From NCBI GenBank assembly GCA_025362395.1, contig JANYGK010000091.1, forward strand, positions 1 through 64,000: a stretch of 64,000 nt of DNA, given 5' to 3'. Positions 5,292 to 12,972 of the stretch are shown piece after piece. The DNA comes from Bacteroidota bacterium. GTDB lineage: Bacteria > Bacteroidota > Bacteroidia > B-17B0 > Aurantibacillaceae. The notes beneath the pieces were generated by a model, which saw nothing but the letters and a program-made list of their open reading frames with translations, ran no database searches and was not told where the DNA came from. The translations under genes were made by a program, and so were the position numbers. Position 1 is the first letter of the stretch. Each line of letters begins with the position of its first letter.

Positions 5292-8200
5292 CTAAACTAC
5301 CATATTCACGATCTTCTTATGAACCACAATTACTTTTTTAGGCTGCTTGCCGTCTAATAATTTGATCGTGTTTTCGTTTTGCATCACCTCTGCTTCTACT
5401 TCCTGAACCGTTAATGTAGCGGGCAGCTCTAGTGTAAATTTTAATTTACCGTTTACGGAAACCGGATAGTTAATGCTGTCATCTACTAAGTACACCTCAT
5501 TAAAGTCGGGGAACGCAGCAGTAGAAATACTTTCAGTATGACCTAATTGTTTCCAAAGCTCTTCTGTAATATGCGGTGCGTAAGGTGACAGGCAAATTAA
5601 TAACGGTTCGAGGATGGCCCTTTTGTTACATTTTAAATCAGTCAGTTCATTGACGCAGATCATAAAATTACTGATTGACGTATTGAAAGAGAAACGCTCA
5701 ATGTCTTCTGTAATTTTTTTAATGGTTTTATGTAAAGCTTTTAATTCGGCTTTGGTTGGTTCGTCATTTGAAATATTAAGAACAACATCCCCCGCCCCTT
5801 GGGCACCCCCTTGTAAGGGGGAATAAAACAAACGCCACAATTTTTTTAAGAAGCCGTGAACACCTGTAATACCATTGGTGTTCCAAGGCTTGCTTTGTTC
5901 TAAAGGGCCTAAAAACATTTCGTACAAGCGTAAGGTATCGGCACCAAATTTTTCTGCTATGTCATCGGGAGAAACTACATTGTATTTTGATTTAGACATT
6001 TTCTCTACTTCATAACCACAGATATATTTATCATTTTTTGTGAAAATCCTCGCGTCTTTTAGATCGTTTCTCCAATTATGAAATTTTTGAATATCTAAAA
6101 CGTCATTATCCACAATATTAACATCAACGGGCAGTTGGCCAAAATCTAAAGATCCTCGAACTTCTTCAATAGTAATGTCATATGAATCTTCAATAAATTT
6201 GATCAACTTTTTGTAATACTCACAGTCAGTTCCCAAAGAAAGAAGTTCATCAACAACATCTTTAGAAACAAAAACTTTAGGGTATTCAATTTCCTTTGAG
6301 AACTTTATATCCCATTTAAATCTATAAACAAAATTACTCCTACCCTGTATCATTCCTTGATTGATCAGCTTCTTAGCGGGTTCATCAATCGCAATATACT
6401 CAAGGTCCTTTAAAATTTTTGTCCAGAAACGGACATATAATAAATGCCCTGTGGCGTGTTCGCTGCCTCCGATATAAAGGTCTACCTGTTTCCAGTAATC
6501 CATTAATTTTCGATCGGCAAACTCGGTTTTATTATGCGCGTCCATGTAACGCAAAAAATACCAAGAGCTTCCGGCCCAACCCGGCATGGTACTATACTCA
6601 TAGGGATATTTTTCAACAACATCCCCCGCCCTTTGGGCACCCCCTTGTAAGGGGGAATAGAACCAGTCTTTCGCGCGCGCCAATGGCGGTTCACCGTCTT
6701 CCGTTGGTAAATAGGTATCGACTTCCGGTAATATTAAAGGCAATTCATTTTCCTCTAACACATACGGAATATTATTTTTATAATATACCGGGATCGGTTC
6801 TCCCCAATAGCGTTGGCGACCAAACACGGCATCACGCAAACGGAAATTTACTTTTCCTTTTCCTAAATTTCTTTTTTCAATTTCAGTGATCGCTTTTTTA
6901 ACGGCCTCTTTTACATCCAATCCGTTTAAGAAATCTGAATTAATTAATTTTCCTTCTTTCGCATCATATGATTCTTTTTCCAAATCGCCGCCGGAAACAA
7001 CTTCAAGAATCGGTAATTTAAAATGTTTGGCAAACGCATAGTCTCTCGAATCATGAGCAGGAACAGCCATGACGGCGCCTGTGCCATAACCTGCCAATAC
7101 GTAATCCCCGATCCAAATCGGAATTTGTTTTTCCGTGAAAGGATGCTCGACATAGGAACCTGTAAACACACCGGTTATTTTTGTGATCTCTGCCTGGCGT
7201 TCGCGTTCGCTCCTGTTTTTTGTTAGTGTAATGTATTCTTCGACTACAGCTTTTTGTTCAGGTGTTGTTAAAGAAGAAACCAATTCATGTTCGGGCGCAA
7301 GCGTTACAAAGGAAACGCCAAACACGGTGTCAGGGCGGGTGGTAAAGACTTCAATAAAGTCCTCACCCCCTAACCCCCTCTCCAAGGTAGAGGGGGAATT
7401 AGAACATTTACTTTTTATAATTTCAATTACTGACTCCAAATTATTTTTAACATCTATATTAGTAAATCGTATAATTTCAAAACCACTTAACTCTAATATA
7501 ATTGAACGGGCATCATCTAGTTCTTTTTGTTCAGGATAATTATGATATTCACCATCTATTTCAACAATTAAATTATGTTCTAAGCAAACAAAATCTGCAA
7601 TAAATCTATCAATTGGATGTTGCCTTCTAAATTTAACATCCAATTTTCTATTTCTTAAAGCCTGCCACATAACATCCTCTGTTTCAGTATAATTTTTCCT
7701 ATTTGCTTTTGCTTTTTTTAATAGGTCGGCTGCTATTTCTTGTTTAGCAGTTAAATAAAAGTGTTTAGTTCCCCTCTGCTTTGGAGAGTGGCCAGGGGTG
7801 AGGATTCTAAACCTTAAGGATGATCCTTCACTTTTTCCAATCCAGTTTCGCTGTGCTTCTTTTAAACTTTCCGTCCAATCCAAAGTATCTAATCCTTCCA
7901 ATAAACGCTGTGCATATTTGGTAATGCGCATGCTCCATTGCTTCATCATCTTACGCTCTACAGGGTGTCCACCACGCTCGCTCACACCGTCTTTAATTTC
8001 ATCATTCGCTAAAACAGTTCCCAATGCGGGGCACCAGTTCACAAAAGATTCTCCTAAATACGCCAAACGAAACTTCATTAAAATATCGCTTTGCTTTTTT
8101 TCGTCAAACGCTTTCCATTCTTCGGCGGTAAATGCCGGAACCTCTTTCTCAATATCACTTGTTACAACATCATGCCCAGTTCCTTTGCAGCCTTCCGTTT

Positions 8201-8693
8201 CAAAAATAGCAAGTAAGCTCTTTATGTTTTCCGCTTTATCCGTTCTTGGATTATACCACGCATTAAAAATTTGAATAAAGATCCACTGAGTCCATTTATA
8301 ATATTCGGGATCTGACGTTCTTACTTCCCTGTCCCAGTCAAACGAAAAGCCGATCTTATCCATTTGTTCACGGTAACGCGCAATATTTTGTTTGGTAGTA
8401 ATCGCAGGGTGTTGGCCTGTCTGTATGGCATATTGTTCGGCCGGTAAACCAAAACTGTCGTAACCCATAGGGTGCAACACATTAAAGCCTTTATGGCGTT
8501 TGTAGCGCGATACAATATCGGAAGCAATATAACCTAAAGGATGGCCTACATGTAGGCCTGCACCTGACGGGTAAGGAAACATATCCAGTACATAATATTT
8601 TTCCTTAGTCGAATCATCTTTTGCTGCAAAGGTTTTATGCTTTGCCCAATAAGCCTGCCAATTGCTTTCTATCTCTTTAAAATTATATTCCAT
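5292..8693 (-). CDS. leuS: Leucyl-tRNA synthetase with three in-frame element insertions
   Basis: LeuRS charges tRNA-Leu with leucine. The class I signatures are present: HVGH at residues 48-51, KMSKS at 898-902, and the editing-domain TTRPDT motif just after residue 447. At 1133 residues it is about 180 longer than usual for Bacteroidota. The excess is explained by residues 298-444, a whole DUF559 nuclease domain bounded by inverted repeats, and by two copies of a 15-residue peptide ([14 protein letters not shown]) at 679-693 and 957-971. All three keep the frame, and the flanks (SSLRFRI before, [12 protein letters not shown] after) are normal LeuRS sequence. Since leuS is normally essential and I saw no second copy in the window, the protein presumably tolerates or tucks away the insertions. 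Confidence 0.95.
5781..5825 (-). repeat. Short palindromic element, solo copy A, in frame in leuS
   Basis: This 45-nt segment matches copy B (6615-6659) at all but one base. It contains a 7-bp hairpin (CCCCCTT/AAGGGGG, positions 5806-5821) and then further C/G runs. It encodes LeuRS residues 957-971, replacing what is normally a short linker after the LWRLFY block. Its architecture (C-run hairpin plus a second G-run) matches the terminal inverted repeats of the two DUF559 elements in this window. Confidence 0.88.
6615..6659 (-). repeat. Short palindromic element, solo copy B, in frame in leuS
   Basis: This is the second 45-nt copy, in the same orientation and reading frame as copy A, 834 nt (278 codons) away. 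It encodes LeuRS residues 679-693, between KDWF and the [17 protein letters not shown] block. The hairpin CCCCCTT/AAGGGGG occupies 6640-6655. The single difference from copy A makes Q-R instead of Q-G in the encoded peptide. Confidence 0.88.
7362..7802 (-). mobile_element. DUF559 nuclease element inserted in frame in leuS
   Basis: This 441-nt segment (exactly 147 codons, LeuRS residues 298-444) is bounded by imperfect ~40-nt inverted repeats. The left end, about 7361-7405, is CCTCACCCC followed by an 8-bp hairpin CCCCCTCT/AGAGGGGG; the right end, about 7766-7803, is its inverted counterpart with a hairpin of one mismatch and the same 7-nt loop. The interior encodes a DUF559 (Vsr-like PD-(D/E)XK) domain: Glu339 in [15 protein letters not shown], Asp367 in IADF, EIDG at 378-381 and His384. 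It has no stop codon in the leuS frame and no separate start is needed. No target-site duplication is evident. Confidence 0.85.
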
Positions 8694-8794: not shown

Positions 8795-9014
8795 GACGTG
8801 TCCCTATGGGTCAGGCTGTCGCTGCAATCTTTTACTCCACTGTGTTACGTAAAAGGATTTTCGCTTGCATCCTTCACGCGAATTTATTACAAATTCAGAG
8901 TTTAATTTTCATTCGGGTGTTATACAGCGCGAGGGATGCAAACGAAAATCCTTTTTTTGTGAAACAAAAAACGATTGTAGTGACAGCCCGATTCGGCTTC
9001 CGCCGAACGCGCCC
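8795..9014. repeat. Long imperfect inverted repeat (~220 nt)
   Basis: The outer arms pair around GGCTGTCGCTGCAATC (8814-8829) and GATTGTAGTGACAGCC (8973-8988). The inner arms pair around AAAAGGATTTTCGCTTGCAT (from 8851) and the complementary ATGCAAACGAAAATCCTTTT ending near 8957, closed by a ~50-nt loop. A further small hairpin (TTCGGCTTCCGCCGAA) follows at the right end. Differences between the arms are largely G-T compatible, which suggests a conserved RNA fold or a non-coding mobile repeat. It has no coding content. Confidence 0.75.
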
Positions 9015-9070: not shown

Positions 9071-9949
9071 CTAATATTTAATTCCTGAAACACCAATGTT
9101 TTCAATAGGATGCCAGGTTGTTTTTATTTCCTGAAGGTCGGTAATAAAATAAGGGCCCTGCTCTTTTTCATCAGTCCAATTTTTATTCCAGGTAAACACA
9201 CGCTTCACATTTAAAGAGGCATTTTCGCCGATGGTTTTATTAAAGTCTTTTTCACTGTTGCAATTTATTACTGCGTTCACATCCATGTGAGATGAAAAAT
9301 GTGCATGTAATTCTTTTCTGTTACCGGTGACAATATTTACGACGCCGCCCGGAACATCGCTCGTCGCAATAACCTCAGCAAAGGTAATAGAACAGGTTGG
9401 TTTGCTTTCTGATGCTAAAACAATACAGGTATTACCGCCTGCAATGCAAGGTGCAATCACTGAAACTAATCCCAGTAAAGCAGTTGACTCGTCTGCCATA
9501 ATAGCAACCACGCCCATTGGTTCAGGAACTGAAAAATTAAAATGAGACGTTGCCACAGGATTTACTGAACTGAATAATTGCTGGTATTTATCGCACCAAC
9601 CGGCATAATATACTAAGCGGTCAATGCTTTGTTCCACTTTTTTTTTTGCACTAGCTGCAGTATAACCCAACTGTTTTAATTCTTCTAAAAATTGTTCTTT
9701 ACGGCCTTCCAGCATTTCTGCTATACGGTATAAAATTTGTCCGCGGTTAAACGCCGGTTTTCCGCTCCAGCCGTTGAATGCGCCACGGGCTGCAATCACA
9801 GAATTCCTGAAATCTTTACGCGATGATAAACTAACGTTTACGGTCATGTTGTTCTTTAATTTTAAAGGGTAATAACGACCGCTTTCCGTACGAGGGAATT
9901 GTCCGCCGATAAATATTTTGTATGTTTTTAAAACTTCTATTCTATCCAT
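9071..9949 (-). CDS. Truncated aldehyde dehydrogenase-like protein (likely non-catalytic)
   Basis: The 292 residues match the NAD-binding half of the aldehyde dehydrogenase superfamily: an IFIGGQFPRTESG start, FNRGQILYRIAEML, VYYAGWCDKY, EPMGVVAIMADES, and the GGVVNIVTGN turn. The protein then departs from the family: I see no FELGGK-type glutamate motif and no GQxCC nucleophile cysteine, and it stops ~190 residues early, ending in ENIGVSGIKY. It is an intact ORF rather than a frameshifted relic. Its full-length paralogue is just upstream in the same operon, and truncated partner ALDHs beside deoC occur in other bacteria as far as I recall. A structural or regulatory partner role is inference. 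Confidence 0.75.
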   Translation of the reverse strand: MDRIEVLKTYKIFIGGQFPRTESGRYYPLKLKNNMTVNVSLSSRKDFRNSVIAARGAFNGWSGKPAFNRGQILYRIAEMLEGRKEQFLEELKQLGYTAASAKKKVEQSIDRLVYYAGWCDKYQQLFSSVNPVATSHFNFSVPEPMGVVAIMADESTALLGLVSVIAPCIAGGNTCIVLASESKPTCSITFAEVIATSDVPGGVVNIVTGNRKELHAHFSSHMDVNAVINCNSEKDFNKTIGENASLNVKRVFTWNKNWTDEKEQGPYFITDLQEIKTTWHPIENIGVSGIKY

Positions 9950-9959
9950 TGCTATTGTG

Positions 9960-10367
9960 TTAAACCCGTTCGGTTTCCCCTCTAAAAAGAGGGGACTGAG
10001 GGGTGTGTTGTTCTAATTTATTTTCTATAAATACAGATAAGGATTGTAATACCGAATCCAAATTATTTTTTACTTCGCCTTCAGAAAATCGTAAGACAGT
10101 AAAACCCAGACAGGTTAATTCGATATCTCTTTTTTTATCTTCTCCGGGTTTAAAATTATGGCTGTAACCATCAATTTCAATAATTAATTTTAATTTAAAG
10201 CAATAAAAATCAACTATATAATTTAAAATTGGCTTTTGCCTGTGAAAATCAAACCCACAACATTGTTTGCCTTTTAGTTTTTTCCATAACAAAATCTCGC
10301 CCTTGGTAGAGTTGTTGCGAAGCTCTCTCGCTTTTTCTTTTAAATATGGATTGTATGTTATTTTCAA
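9960..10367 (-). CDS. DUF559 domain endonuclease-like protein
   Basis: This 135-residue free-standing protein has the DUF559 fold signatures: Glu24 in KGEILLW, the FHRQKPI block, Asp53 in IVDF, EIDG at 64-67 and His70. The family is related to Vsr mismatch endonucleases of the PD-(D/E)XK superfamily. It aligns by eye with the domain embedded in LeuRS and shares the late VKNNL-SV segment. Its last ~17 residues (HTPQSPLFRGETERV region) are encoded by the element's own terminal repeat plus a few host bases. It lies between two ALDH genes of one operon and is the cargo of the element at 9973-10446. Its activity is unproven. Confidence 0.85.
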   Translation of the reverse strand: MKITYNPYLKEKARELRNNSTKGEILLWKKLKGKQCCGFDFHRQKPILNYIVDFYCFKLKLIIEIDGYSHNFKPGEDKKRDIELTCLGFTVLRFSEGEVKNNLDSVLQSLSVFIENKLEQHTPQSPLFRGETERV

Positions 10368-10446
10368 TGCTAATTTAATATCTCATTTCTATCATGTGTT
10401 AAAATAGTATACACACCCCTTAATCCCCTCTTTCTAGAGGGGAAAC
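9973..10446 (-). mobile_element. DUF559 element with 36-nt terminal inverted repeats
   Basis: The ends are 9973-10008 and 10411-10446, inverted copies identical at about 33 of 36 positions. Each end holds a perfect 7-bp hairpin, CCCCTCT/AGAGGGG with a 4-nt loop, at 9977-9994 and 10425-10442, followed by a GAGGGGTGTGT-type tail. The cargo is one DUF559 gene. The element sits between the 489-residue ALDH gene and its truncated paralogue, and no target duplication is visible. The ends share design with the leuS insertions. Confidence 0.82.
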
Positions 10447-10455
10447 AGAGGCAAC

Positions 10456-11925
10456 TTAAAACTTAAGGTAAGGCATTAAACCATGCAGTCCGCCTTCCCT
10501 TCCAAAGCCGCTTTCTTTGTAGCCGCCGAAAGGAGAAGTAGGATCAAATTTATTATACGTGTTTGCCCAAATAACTCCTGCTCTTAATTTAGAAGTCATA
10601 TTAAAAATGCGCGAACCTTTATCTGTCCACACACCGGCACTTAAACCGTAAGGAATATTGTTTGCTTTTTCAATCACTTCTTCAATCGTCCTGAAAGTTT
10701 GAATGGCTAACACAGGCCCGAAAATTTCTTCCTGTGAAATGCGGTGCGATTGTGAGGTGTTTAAAAACAACGTCGGTCTTACAAAAAATCCTTTTTTCGG
10801 AATGCTGCAAGAGCTTTGGTACATCTCAGCTCCATCGTTCACTCCAATTTTTAAATACTCATTTATTTTATTCAATTGCATTTTAGAATTTATGGCGCCA
10901 ATGTCTGTGTTCTTATCTAAAGGGTCACCTACAATCAATGTTTCTAACCGGTCTTTTAATTTACGGATCACTTCATCGGCTACACTTTCCTGAACGAATA
11001 AACGGGAACCGGCGCAGCATACATGGCCTTGGTTAAAAAAGATCCCGTTCACAATTCCTTCTACAGCCTGGTTGATAGGCGCATCTTCAAAAATGATATT
11101 TGCTGCTTTACCGCCTAACTCTAAAGTTAGTTTTTTATCGGTTCCTGCCACTGCTTTCTGAATCCATTTACCAACATTGGTGCTTCCCGTAAAAGCAATT
11201 TTATTAATGTCTTTATGGTTAACCATAGAAGCGCCAACAGGCCCGTGACCGGTAATAATGTTTACTACGCCGTCAGGCAAACCGCTCTCTTGGATAATTT
11301 CAGCTAATTTAAGTGCAGTTAATGAAGTGGTTTCTGCCGGCTTTAAAACAACCGTATTGCCGGTTGCCAATGCCGGCGCTATTTTCCAGGCAGCCATTAA
11401 TAAAGGAAAATTCCAGGGGATAACTTGTCCGGCAACACCCAATGATTTTGGGTTACGGTTCGGAAAAGCATATTCTAATTTATCGGCCCAACCTGCATAA
11501 TAAAAAAAGTGGTTCGCTGCTAAAGGCACATCAATATCACGGCTTTCACGGATTGATTTTCCGCCATCCATCGTTTCAATAACCGATAATTCGCGGGCTC
11601 TTTCCTGGATTAAACGGGCAATACGGTAAATGTATTTAGCGCGTTCCTTCGCGGGCATTTTACTCCATGTCTTGTCGTATGCCCCGCGAGCCGCTTTCAC
11701 GGCAGTGTCTACATCCTTGTCATTAGATTCGGCAATGCTTGAAATTTTTTCTTCTGTAGCAGGGTTAATGGTATCGAAATATTTACCGGAGTTTGGTTTT
11801 ACAAATTTACCGTTAATAAAAAGCTCGTATTGTTTCTGTAAACGAATGTGATCGGTCGCTTCAGGAGCCGGTGCATATTTCCAATCCGTAAAATAGTCTA
11901 GTTTCTTAGTTTCTTTTTTTGACAT
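10456..11925 (-). CDS. Aldehyde dehydrogenase
   Basis: This 489-residue NAD(P)-dependent aldehyde dehydrogenase has all key motifs: VIPWNFPLLMAAWKIAPALA, VLKPAETT, the FTGSTNVGK coenzyme loop, LELGGKAANI with the general-base glutamate, the nucleophile region GHVCCAGS (Cys303/Cys304), EEIFGPVL, and the ANTYNKFDPTSPFGG-KESGFGRE C-terminus. It lies downstream of deoC on the same strand. A plausible role is oxidation of the acetaldehyde that DeoC releases from deoxyribose 5-phosphate to acetate, though the substrate cannot be fixed from sequence. A repeat fills the gap to deoC and a DUF559 element follows. Confidence 0.92.
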   Translation of the reverse strand: MSKKETKKLDYFTDWKYAPAPEATDHIRLQKQYELFINGKFVKPNSGKYFDTINPATEEKISSIAESNDKDVDTAVKAARGAYDKTWSKMPAKERAKYIYRIARLIQERARELSVIETMDGGKSIRESRDIDVPLAANHFFYYAGWADKLEYAFPNRNPKSLGVAGQVIPWNFPLLMAAWKIAPALATGNTVVLKPAETTSLTALKLAEIIQESGLPDGVVNIITGHGPVGASMVNHKDINKIAFTGSTNVGKWIQKAVAGTDKKLTLELGGKAANIIFEDAPINQAVEGIVNGIFFNQGHVCCAGSRLFVQESVADEVIRKLKDRLETLIVGDPLDKNTDIGAINSKMQLNKINEYLKIGVNDGAEMYQSSCSIPKKGFFVRPTLFLNTSQSHRISQEEIFGPVLAIQTFRTIEEVIEKANNIPYGLSAGVWTDKGSRIFNMTSKLRAGVIWANTYNKFDPTSPFGGYKESGFGREGGLHGLMPYLKF

Positions 11926-12069: not shown

Positions 12070-12972
12070 TTAATCAACCGAAATATAATCTTTACTAAAA
12101 TAAACACCCCTTGCTTCTTTTTCTAATTGTAAAATTAAATCGTTAGCCAATGAGCTGGCGCCAAAGCGAAACCATTTATTATCCAACCAGGCATTACCCA
12201 AAGTTTCATGCAACATTACCAAATACTGCAAAGCACTTTTTGCTGTGCTGATGCCGCCCGCAGGCTTCATACCCACCATAATACCTGTTTTAAAATAATA
12301 ATCTTTAATAGCATCTAACATCACTAAAGTAACCGGCATGGTGGCCGCTACTCCAATTTTACCGGTAGATGTTTTAATAAAATCCGCTCCCGCATAAATA
12401 GCGATATCACTTGCGCGACGCACGTTATCTAAAGTAGAGATCTCTCCTGTTTCAAAAATAACTTTTAAACGCGCATTATATTTATGTGTTAAATCTTTGA
12501 TGGCTGCTATTTCATCAAATACAAAATCGTAATTACCTTTTAAAAATTCGCCCCGGCTAATTACCATATCAATTTCATCGGCACCGTTATCCAACGCAAA
12601 TTTTGTATCGGCCAGTTTTATTTGCATGGTTGAATTACCGCTGGGGAAAGCCGTTGAAACAGACGCTACTTTTACAGTACTTCCTTTTAAAGCGTCTTTA
12701 GCCGTTTTTACATGTGTAGGATACACGCAAACCGCCGCAGTAGACGGTAAATCAGGCATAGAGATGTGCGGGTGCATTGCCTTATAACACATTTGGGTTA
12801 CTTTCCCTTCGGTATCCTTGCCTTCCAAAGTCGTTAAGTCAATCATGCTAAGTGCTAACTTAAGCGCCTGAACTTTACTCCCTTTTTTAATACTTCGCGT
12901 ATTAAACCGGGCTACCCTTTCCTCAATACCAACTTGGTCAATCGTTGGACCGGTTCTAAAATCGTATGCCAT
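12070..12972 (-). CDS. deoC: Deoxyribose-phosphate aldolase
   Basis: DeoC cleaves 2-deoxyribose 5-phosphate to glyceraldehyde 3-phosphate and acetaldehyde in deoxynucleoside breakdown. The 300-residue protein belongs to the longer DeoC group. Visible motifs are MIDLTTLEGKDTEG, VCVYPTHV, FPSGNSTMQIKLADTKFALDNGADEIDMVI, LKVIFETGEI, and the Schiff-base lysine region ADFIKTSTGKIG, then GMKPAGGIST. It heads a minus-strand operon with two aldehyde dehydrogenase genes. A -7 box lies upstream (13004-13011). No other deo genes are present in the window. Confidence 0.94.
   Translation of the reverse strand: MAYDFRTGPTIDQVGIEERVARFNTRSIKKGSKVQALKLALSMIDLTTLEGKDTEGKVTQMCYKAMHPHISMPDLPSTAAVCVYPTHVKTAKDALKGSTVKVASVSTAFPSGNSTMQIKLADTKFALDNGADEIDMVISRGEFLKGNYDFVFDEIAAIKDLTHKYNARLKVIFETGEISTLDNVRRASDIAIYAGADFIKTSTGKIGVAATMPVTLVMLDAIKDYYFKTGIMVGMKPAGGISTAKSALQYLVMLHETLGNAWLDNKWFRFGASSLANDLILQLEKEARGVYFSKDYISVD

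Follow-up and report, generated by a model that had tools for sequence, protein, structure and literature searches.

A DUF559 nuclease gene between palindromic inverted ends in a Bacteroidota genome, and the probable spread of such genes by homing

In a stretch of 64,000 nucleotides from a Bacteroidota bacterium (contig JANYGK010000091.1, positions 1 to 64,000, hereafter the window), a single nuclease gene of the DUF559 family lies between two inverted palindromic ends. Such ends accompany most genes of this family in related genomes, and one clade of the family is inserted in frame into conserved enzymes, leucyl-tRNA synthetase (LeuRS) being one of them. Homing by an EDxHD-type nuclease, accompanied by rare ectopic insertion, is probably the main mode of spread of these genes. 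A broader proposal, which we hold to be possible rather than probable, is that DUF559 proteins are the enzymes behind widespread bacterial palindromic repeats and that one of their clades is a protein-embedded mobile element, translated and unspliced, in essential enzymes.

The element between two aldehyde dehydrogenase genes

The free-standing element occupies positions 9970-10449 of the window (reverse strand) and is defined by a repeat search, a shuffle test and empty sites in relatives. Its inverted arms, 9970-10008 and 10411-10449, are 39 nt long, match at 35 of 39 positions (90%) and stand 402 nt apart. The initial annotation of this DNA had described 36-nt terminal inverted repeats of about 92% identity, each with a CCCCTCT/AGAGGGG hairpin and a tail, enclosing a single DUF559 gene. 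This anatomy holds: the 36-nt core of the arms (9973-10008 and 10411-10446) matches at 33 positions, and each arm consists of a perfect 7-bp hairpin followed inward by a GGGGTGTGT tail. Specifically, the end located 3′ of the gene carries its hairpin at 9977-9994 and its GGGGTGTGT tail at 10000-10008, while the end located 5′ of the gene carries its tail, read as ACACACCCC, at 10411-10419 and its hairpin at 10425-10442. We refer to this arrangement, with the hairpin outermost and the tail inward, as type I. The arms reach a score of 30 as compared with a maximum of 15 in 300 dinucleotide-preserving shuffles, and represent the strongest inverted repeat of the window, in which palindromes of the form CCCCT..AGGGG occur 9 times against an expectation of 0.48.

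The sole gene between the arms (PF04480, E 1.2e-33) is encoded on the reverse strand at 9960-10367 and specifies 135 amino acids from a TTG start. Its reading frame crosses the 3′ end of the element, and the C-terminal peptide QHTPQSPLFRGETERV is coded by the hairpin repeat. Predicted fold and profile point to a relative of the EDxHD (Vsr-like) homing endonucleases. A profile search of the PDB gave E 6e-33 for 3hrl and E 4.5e-5 for the homing endonuclease I-Bth0305I (3r3p). In structural comparisons, a model of the protein (pLDDT 87) matched 3hrl with a Z score of 16.1 and 38% identity, I-Bth0305I with 12.0 (rmsd 2.0 over 94 residues) and Vsr (1cw0) with 9.4. The closest solved DUF559 protein, 3hrl, is NGO0050 of Neisseria gonorrhoeae, whose function is not known. 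Residues E24, D53, E64, D66 with the following glycine, H70 and D77 are invariant in 26 DUF559 sequences, within a signature that reads E, W, Q, DF, E.DG, H, D. The conserved acidic and histidine residues form a putative catalytic site, as in the EDxHD family. In addition, pN/pS ranges from 0.04 to 0.34 in 17 pairs of sequences; together with the invariant residues, this means that the nuclease has been kept. Membership in a defence system was rejected, the matches in PADLOC being weak (E 4.5e-5, to a homing endonuclease model).

The element is flanked by ALDH2, an aldehyde dehydrogenase gene of 489 codons (10456-11925), and by ALDH1, a short aldehyde-dehydrogenase-like gene of 292 codons (9071-9949); both are on the reverse strand, as is deoC (12070-12972), which lies upstream of both. 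The initial annotation had placed the element between an aldehyde dehydrogenase gene and its truncated paralogue. The position is correct, but the truncation is not, since the 292-residue form is the normal ALDH1 length in the genus, full length in nearly all same-genus genomes where it is found. The empty site that had been anticipated in relatives does exist: the gap between the two genes measures 509 nt in the window and 13-113 nt in most same-genus genomes with an adjacent pair, with a longer gap of 166 nt at one locus (L057). Genome G006 (L053) shares the element, including its position and its ends. As this genome and that of the window (G000) are near-basal branches of the genus, the shared element may be inherited. 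Other insertions have also been observed here. In G017, G015, G008 and the more distant G033 (loci L043, L051 and L060 of the same genus and L071 of another family), the gap is occupied by a GxxExxY-like gene between AACCGCAAAGA-type inverted repeats, which read AACCGCAAAGA..TCTTTGCGGTTAA. Elements of different kinds have therefore settled in this gap, and the GxxExxY-like gene with its repeats is apparently a parallel nuclease-plus-repeat element. The window genome has four matches to PF13366 (PDDEXK_3).

Palindromic ends and the in-frame clade

Five DUF559 genes are present in the window genome. Four of them lie between inverted palindromes, namely the copy at the ALDH site, the one in leuS (C39) and the copies C9 and C35, the last being decayed; the fifth, C66, is decayed as well and has a palindrome on one side. 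Decayed copies in this genome contain stop codons. The expectation that further DUF559 genes of the genome would be enclosed by palindromic inverted ends is thus borne out by leuS, C9 and C35. Solo ends with no DUF559 gene are found at three intergenic places (C8, C16, C100) and twice in frame within leuS.

In general, the association of the ends with the nuclease gene extends well beyond one genome. Elements of this kind recur across the Bacteroidota, some of them free-standing in intergenic DNA and others in frame within surface loops of housekeeping enzymes. DUF559 is present in 27 of 41 genomes (the window genome and 40 relatives), and most DUF559 genes of the relatives have paired inverted palindromic ends. 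The end sequences vary between elements, and left and right ends fit their own partner best (0 of 5000 permutations, in the in-frame and in the free-standing set), hence left and right ends evolve together. C4 hairpins occur within 260 nt of 92 of 141 DUF559 loci, as compared with 9 of 234 random segments of the same loci and 4 of 30 loci of Y1 (RAYT-type) genes. Moreover, the number of hairpins per genome correlates with the number of DUF559 genes (Spearman 0.61, p 3e-5), the corresponding value for Y1 genes being 0.09. The sole Y1 gene of the window genome (L162, C109) is preceded by GCTCCACAGGAGCGACC repeats, which form a separate palindrome family. Among plasmid-collection records of cyanobacteria, Deinococcus, alphaproteobacteria and E. 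coli, five of eight DUF559 loci show palindromic ends on both sides, and a C/T-rich tail with a CCCCTCTCC..GGAGAGGGG hairpin is found beside DUF559 in Deinococcus, Azospirillum, Sphingomonas and cyanobacteria. In genome G021, which has neither DUF559 nor Y1 genes, a two-ended derivative of 110 nt is present about 12-26 times (loci L353-L372). This derivative is laid out as CTCACCCCC, hairpin, about 35 nt, hairpin and GGGGGTGAG, and is often found beside another repeat, GCGTGAGGGATGCGGAGGGC.

Within the window, leuS (5292-8693, reverse strand) encodes a protein of 1133 residues including its inserts. An in-frame DUF559 element at 7361-7803, with the nuclease domain at 7404-7721, is of type II, that is, with CCTCACCCC..GGGGTGAGG tails outermost and hairpins inward. 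Two solo palindromic ends, also in frame, at 5781-5829 and at site 2 (6615-6663), code for 15 residues each; all these inserts are read on the reverse strand. The solo ends are 96% identical, and the one at 6615-6663 agrees in type with those that enclose the C9 and C35 genes. Since this is the only high-identity leucyl-tRNA synthetase match in the genome, the protein with its three inserts should be functional. The leuS insertion, as the initial annotation had maintained, is not an isolated fusion; the ALDH and leuS insertions are nevertheless not copies of one element, because they belong to separate DUF559 clades and their ends have opposite polarity.

In the relatives, 17 of 18 in-frame copies fall into one clade (support 96/88), and the copy in HsdR, falling outside, represents a second origin. 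When GTDB genomes were scanned with a profile of the in-frame clade, 80 nearest loci were returned, picked by similarity and not by open frame, all from Bacteroidota and about 65 of them in frame in longer or conserved genes. The hosts, identified by Pfam (run on 20 hosts of in-frame copies) or by motif, include LeuRS at two sites, ValRS, IleRS, MetRS, RecG, MetH at three sites, RecJ, chorismate synthase (AroC), urocanate hydratase (HutU), methylmalonyl-CoA mutase, an Lhr-type helicase, GH31, an ABC-F-like ATPase, an IspF-like protein, DegT, HsdR, SpoIIE phosphatases and a CoA transferase; one LeuRS, of genome G001, bears two DUF559 domains. The in-frame copies are absent from most orthologues of their hosts. 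Empty sites are found also at two LeuRS sites, at two MetH sites and in hutU, and LeuRS proteins with no insert have a short turn at the DUF559 site. Any preference for LeuRS loops that lie between conserved motifs is weak: of 18 loops, 4 have a value of at least 0.75 on both flanks, and 2 of these bear DUF559. In some relatives, other families of in-frame palindromic peptides (HPELVSGS..LKQVQHD, FDSAQGD, TSSGVEK) occupy the DUF559 loop of LeuRS site 1 (L142, L145, L148, L150, L152) and the MetH loop where DUF559 inserts elsewhere (L243, L247-L249, L251). The presence of these different short peptides indicates that both loops are insertion-tolerant. In RecG of many Flavobacteriia, DUF559 is found at one position with mostly faded ends (L168, L174, L178, L180, L184, L186, L187, L203, L211, L224, L227, L232, L240). 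A possibility is that this is an old, vertically kept copy; some in-frame copies may, in other words, have been domesticated, as RecG copies look old and their ends are faded.

As to the fate of the insert in the protein, Pfam detected only DUF559 and host domains, and no protein-splicing (Hint) domain, in leuS and in the 20 hosts, a result on which the reading as an intein was rejected. In the structure that AlphaFold predicts for the window LeuRS (mean pLDDT 80), the strands flanking the insert, 287-298 and 446-451, are in place and adjacent to each other, joined through the insert, and the DUF559 domain forms a folded unit whose two connections to them, 301-311 and 435-443, are of low confidence and correspond to the translated palindromes. 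The in-frame copies would apparently remain unspliced and looped out from their host.

Traces of movement and the mode of spread

Sequence comparisons reveal two cases in which movement of the element postdates the divergence of the DNA around it. In G031, the element is inserted at one and the same position in two paralogous SpoIIE-phosphatase genes; the copies are 95.6% identical over 410 nt and the adjoining host DNA is 59-68% identical, one of the copies starting at a contig end, with its other boundary unseen. In hutU, G005 has a full element and G014 and G015 have internally deleted copies with both termini; a deleted two-ended derivative is also present in G002. The hutU genes of G005, G014 and G015 are 97-100% identical over about 240 nt upstream of the site and 93-98% over 60 nt downstream, the lower value being that of G005-G014, as compared with 82-92% farther out for G005-G014 and G014-G015, and the contrast between near and far identity for G005-G014 is the largest of 105 pairs. 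This tract is conversion-like and resembles what homing co-conversion would leave; it concerns one site in three related genomes, and hutU contains other recombination tracts (97-98% far upstream for G014-G011). No conversion tract was seen at LeuRS sites 1 and 2 or in MetH, where indels spoil the positional comparison far from the site.

According to the explanation that we consider probable, homing, the DUF559 nuclease would cut an allele with no element, and repair from the element-bearing copy would install the element together with some flanking DNA. Plain homing leaves the solo ends unexplained. Occasional repair elsewhere would found new sites, and would give rise to solo ends or to MITE-like copies with internal deletions. 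Within the in-frame clade, both palindromic ends would be translated as flexible Pro/Ser/Gly-rich linkers (LTPSPSPKERGT ... SPLPLGEGLGVR), by which the nuclease domain would hang on a surface loop of the host; an essential gene would therefore both express the element and tolerate its presence. The copy at the ALDH site is the intergenic form, provided with its own start codon.

The strongest rival to homing, in our judgement an unlikely one, is transposition by way of the ends. Acting by itself or together with a host protein, DUF559 would excise or copy a transposon-like, REPIN-like unit between true terminal repeats, a PD-(D/E)XK-type nuclease replacing the HUH enzyme. Such a process would account for the matched end pairs, for the solo ends in genes and intergenic regions, for the deleted two-ended derivatives in hutU and in G021, and for the new host genes reached. 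However, no target-site duplication was found at MetH, LeuRS, hutU or 12 of the G021 copies, although the host loops have diverged; the nearest solved relatives of the enzyme are a homing endonuclease and Vsr, and no transposase; the re-occupation of the same site across families suits allelic homing; and the ends of G021 occur with no DUF559 gene. The reading as a classical terminal-inverted-repeat transposon finds no support, as the element lacks a transposase, shows no visible target-site duplication and encodes a relative of the homing endonucleases.

An improbable alternative is that DUF559 is a domesticated repair (VSP-type) or regulatory domain of the host enzyme, with the palindromes acting as terminators or structural repeats. 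The conserved active site and the single position of DUF559 in RecG of many Flavobacteriia, expected from long vertical inheritance, agree with it, and a role in VSP mismatch repair has been proposed for the DUF559 protein VsrA of Caulobacter, which counts against homing (PMC12907096). Nonetheless, one clade in about 20 unrelated hosts, at non-homologous places and absent from most orthologues, is difficult to reconcile with domestication, as are the contrast in identity between element and flanks in G031 and the decayed copies with stop codons in the window genome.

Finally, it is highly improbable that a RAYT (Y1/HUH) moves the palindromes as it does ordinary REP-like repeats, with DUF559 as passive cargo between two of them: the anatomy of the ends is REP-like, RAYTs are common (28 of 41 genomes) and the in-frame tail GGGGTGAG agrees with the motif GGGGWSAS, reported for certain inverted repeats of RAYTs (PMC3733652), yet the one Y1 gene of the window genome is flanked by other repeats, hairpins are rarely close to Y1 loci and their number tracks DUF559, and DUF559 is under purifying selection, so that a RAYT is disfavoured as the mover of the ends.

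Relation to known systems

I-Bth0305I is an EDxHD homing endonuclease (Taylor et al. 2011, cited in PMC3943268), and DUF559 has already been placed in the EDxHD family (PMC9403480). The DUF559 elements share with these endonucleases the nuclease fold and the profile, the compact free-standing genes and the choice of conserved target genes (LeuRS, MetH, RecG). They differ in that they are associated with no intron or intein, have palindromic ends, include a clade in frame in host genes and consist of the nuclease domain only, with no long DNA-binding region. A further parallel is the unspliced homing insertion of ShiLan in a phage methylase, which contains an out-of-frame HNH gene (PMC11855218). 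Both cases involve a stop-free insertion in a host protein, no splicing domain, a homing-like distribution and an endonuclease inside; in ShiLan, however, HNH is in another frame, the hosts are phage methylases and palindromic ends are not reported, whereas the DUF559 nuclease is in the host frame and in about 20 host families.

Palindromic insertions in frame occur in Rickettsia as well, where they are called palindromic elements (RPE; Ogata et al. 2000, 2002, cited in PMC10969869). These place palindromic DNA in frame in loops of unrelated proteins and resemble the in-frame clade and the leuS solo ends, not the window element. Unlike the DUF559 elements, RPEs are about 150 bp long and have no known enzyme; their CGTC end tag (PMC3733652) was not found in the DUF559 ends read, the comparison being made by tag. 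Similarly, REP/RAYT systems (REPtrons, REPINs; PMC3733652) have inverted pairs of hairpin and tail around an enzyme gene, and solo copies elsewhere, but the DUF559 elements lack the GTAG tail (their ends being a hairpin with GGGGTGTGT or GGGGTGAGG) and have no Y1/HUH transposase between their repeats, and Y1 loci are largely devoid of these ends. In the openly licensed literature, no paper was found that describes palindromic ends around DUF559 or its presence as a translated, in-frame insert in housekeeping proteins; these genes are apparently a little-described kind of selfish gene.

In introns and inteins, splicing hides the damage and lets homing endonucleases occupy essential genes. If true, the unspliced, protein-embedded clade would represent a third way, besides these two, to occupy a conserved gene, and would explain odd insertions of 100-150 residues in Bacteroidota enzymes. 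In addition, DUF559 is a candidate for the enzyme behind palindromic repeats to which none has yet been assigned; for the CGTC repeats, a dedicated transposase is stated to be lacking (PMC3733652). Both claims, that of the unspliced insert and that of the repeat enzyme, are testable with small proteins and short DNA targets. As a minor observation, the window contains another inverted repeat upstream of leuS, at 8851-8955, with 29-nt arms of 90% identity standing 47 nt apart and unrelated to the DUF559 ends.
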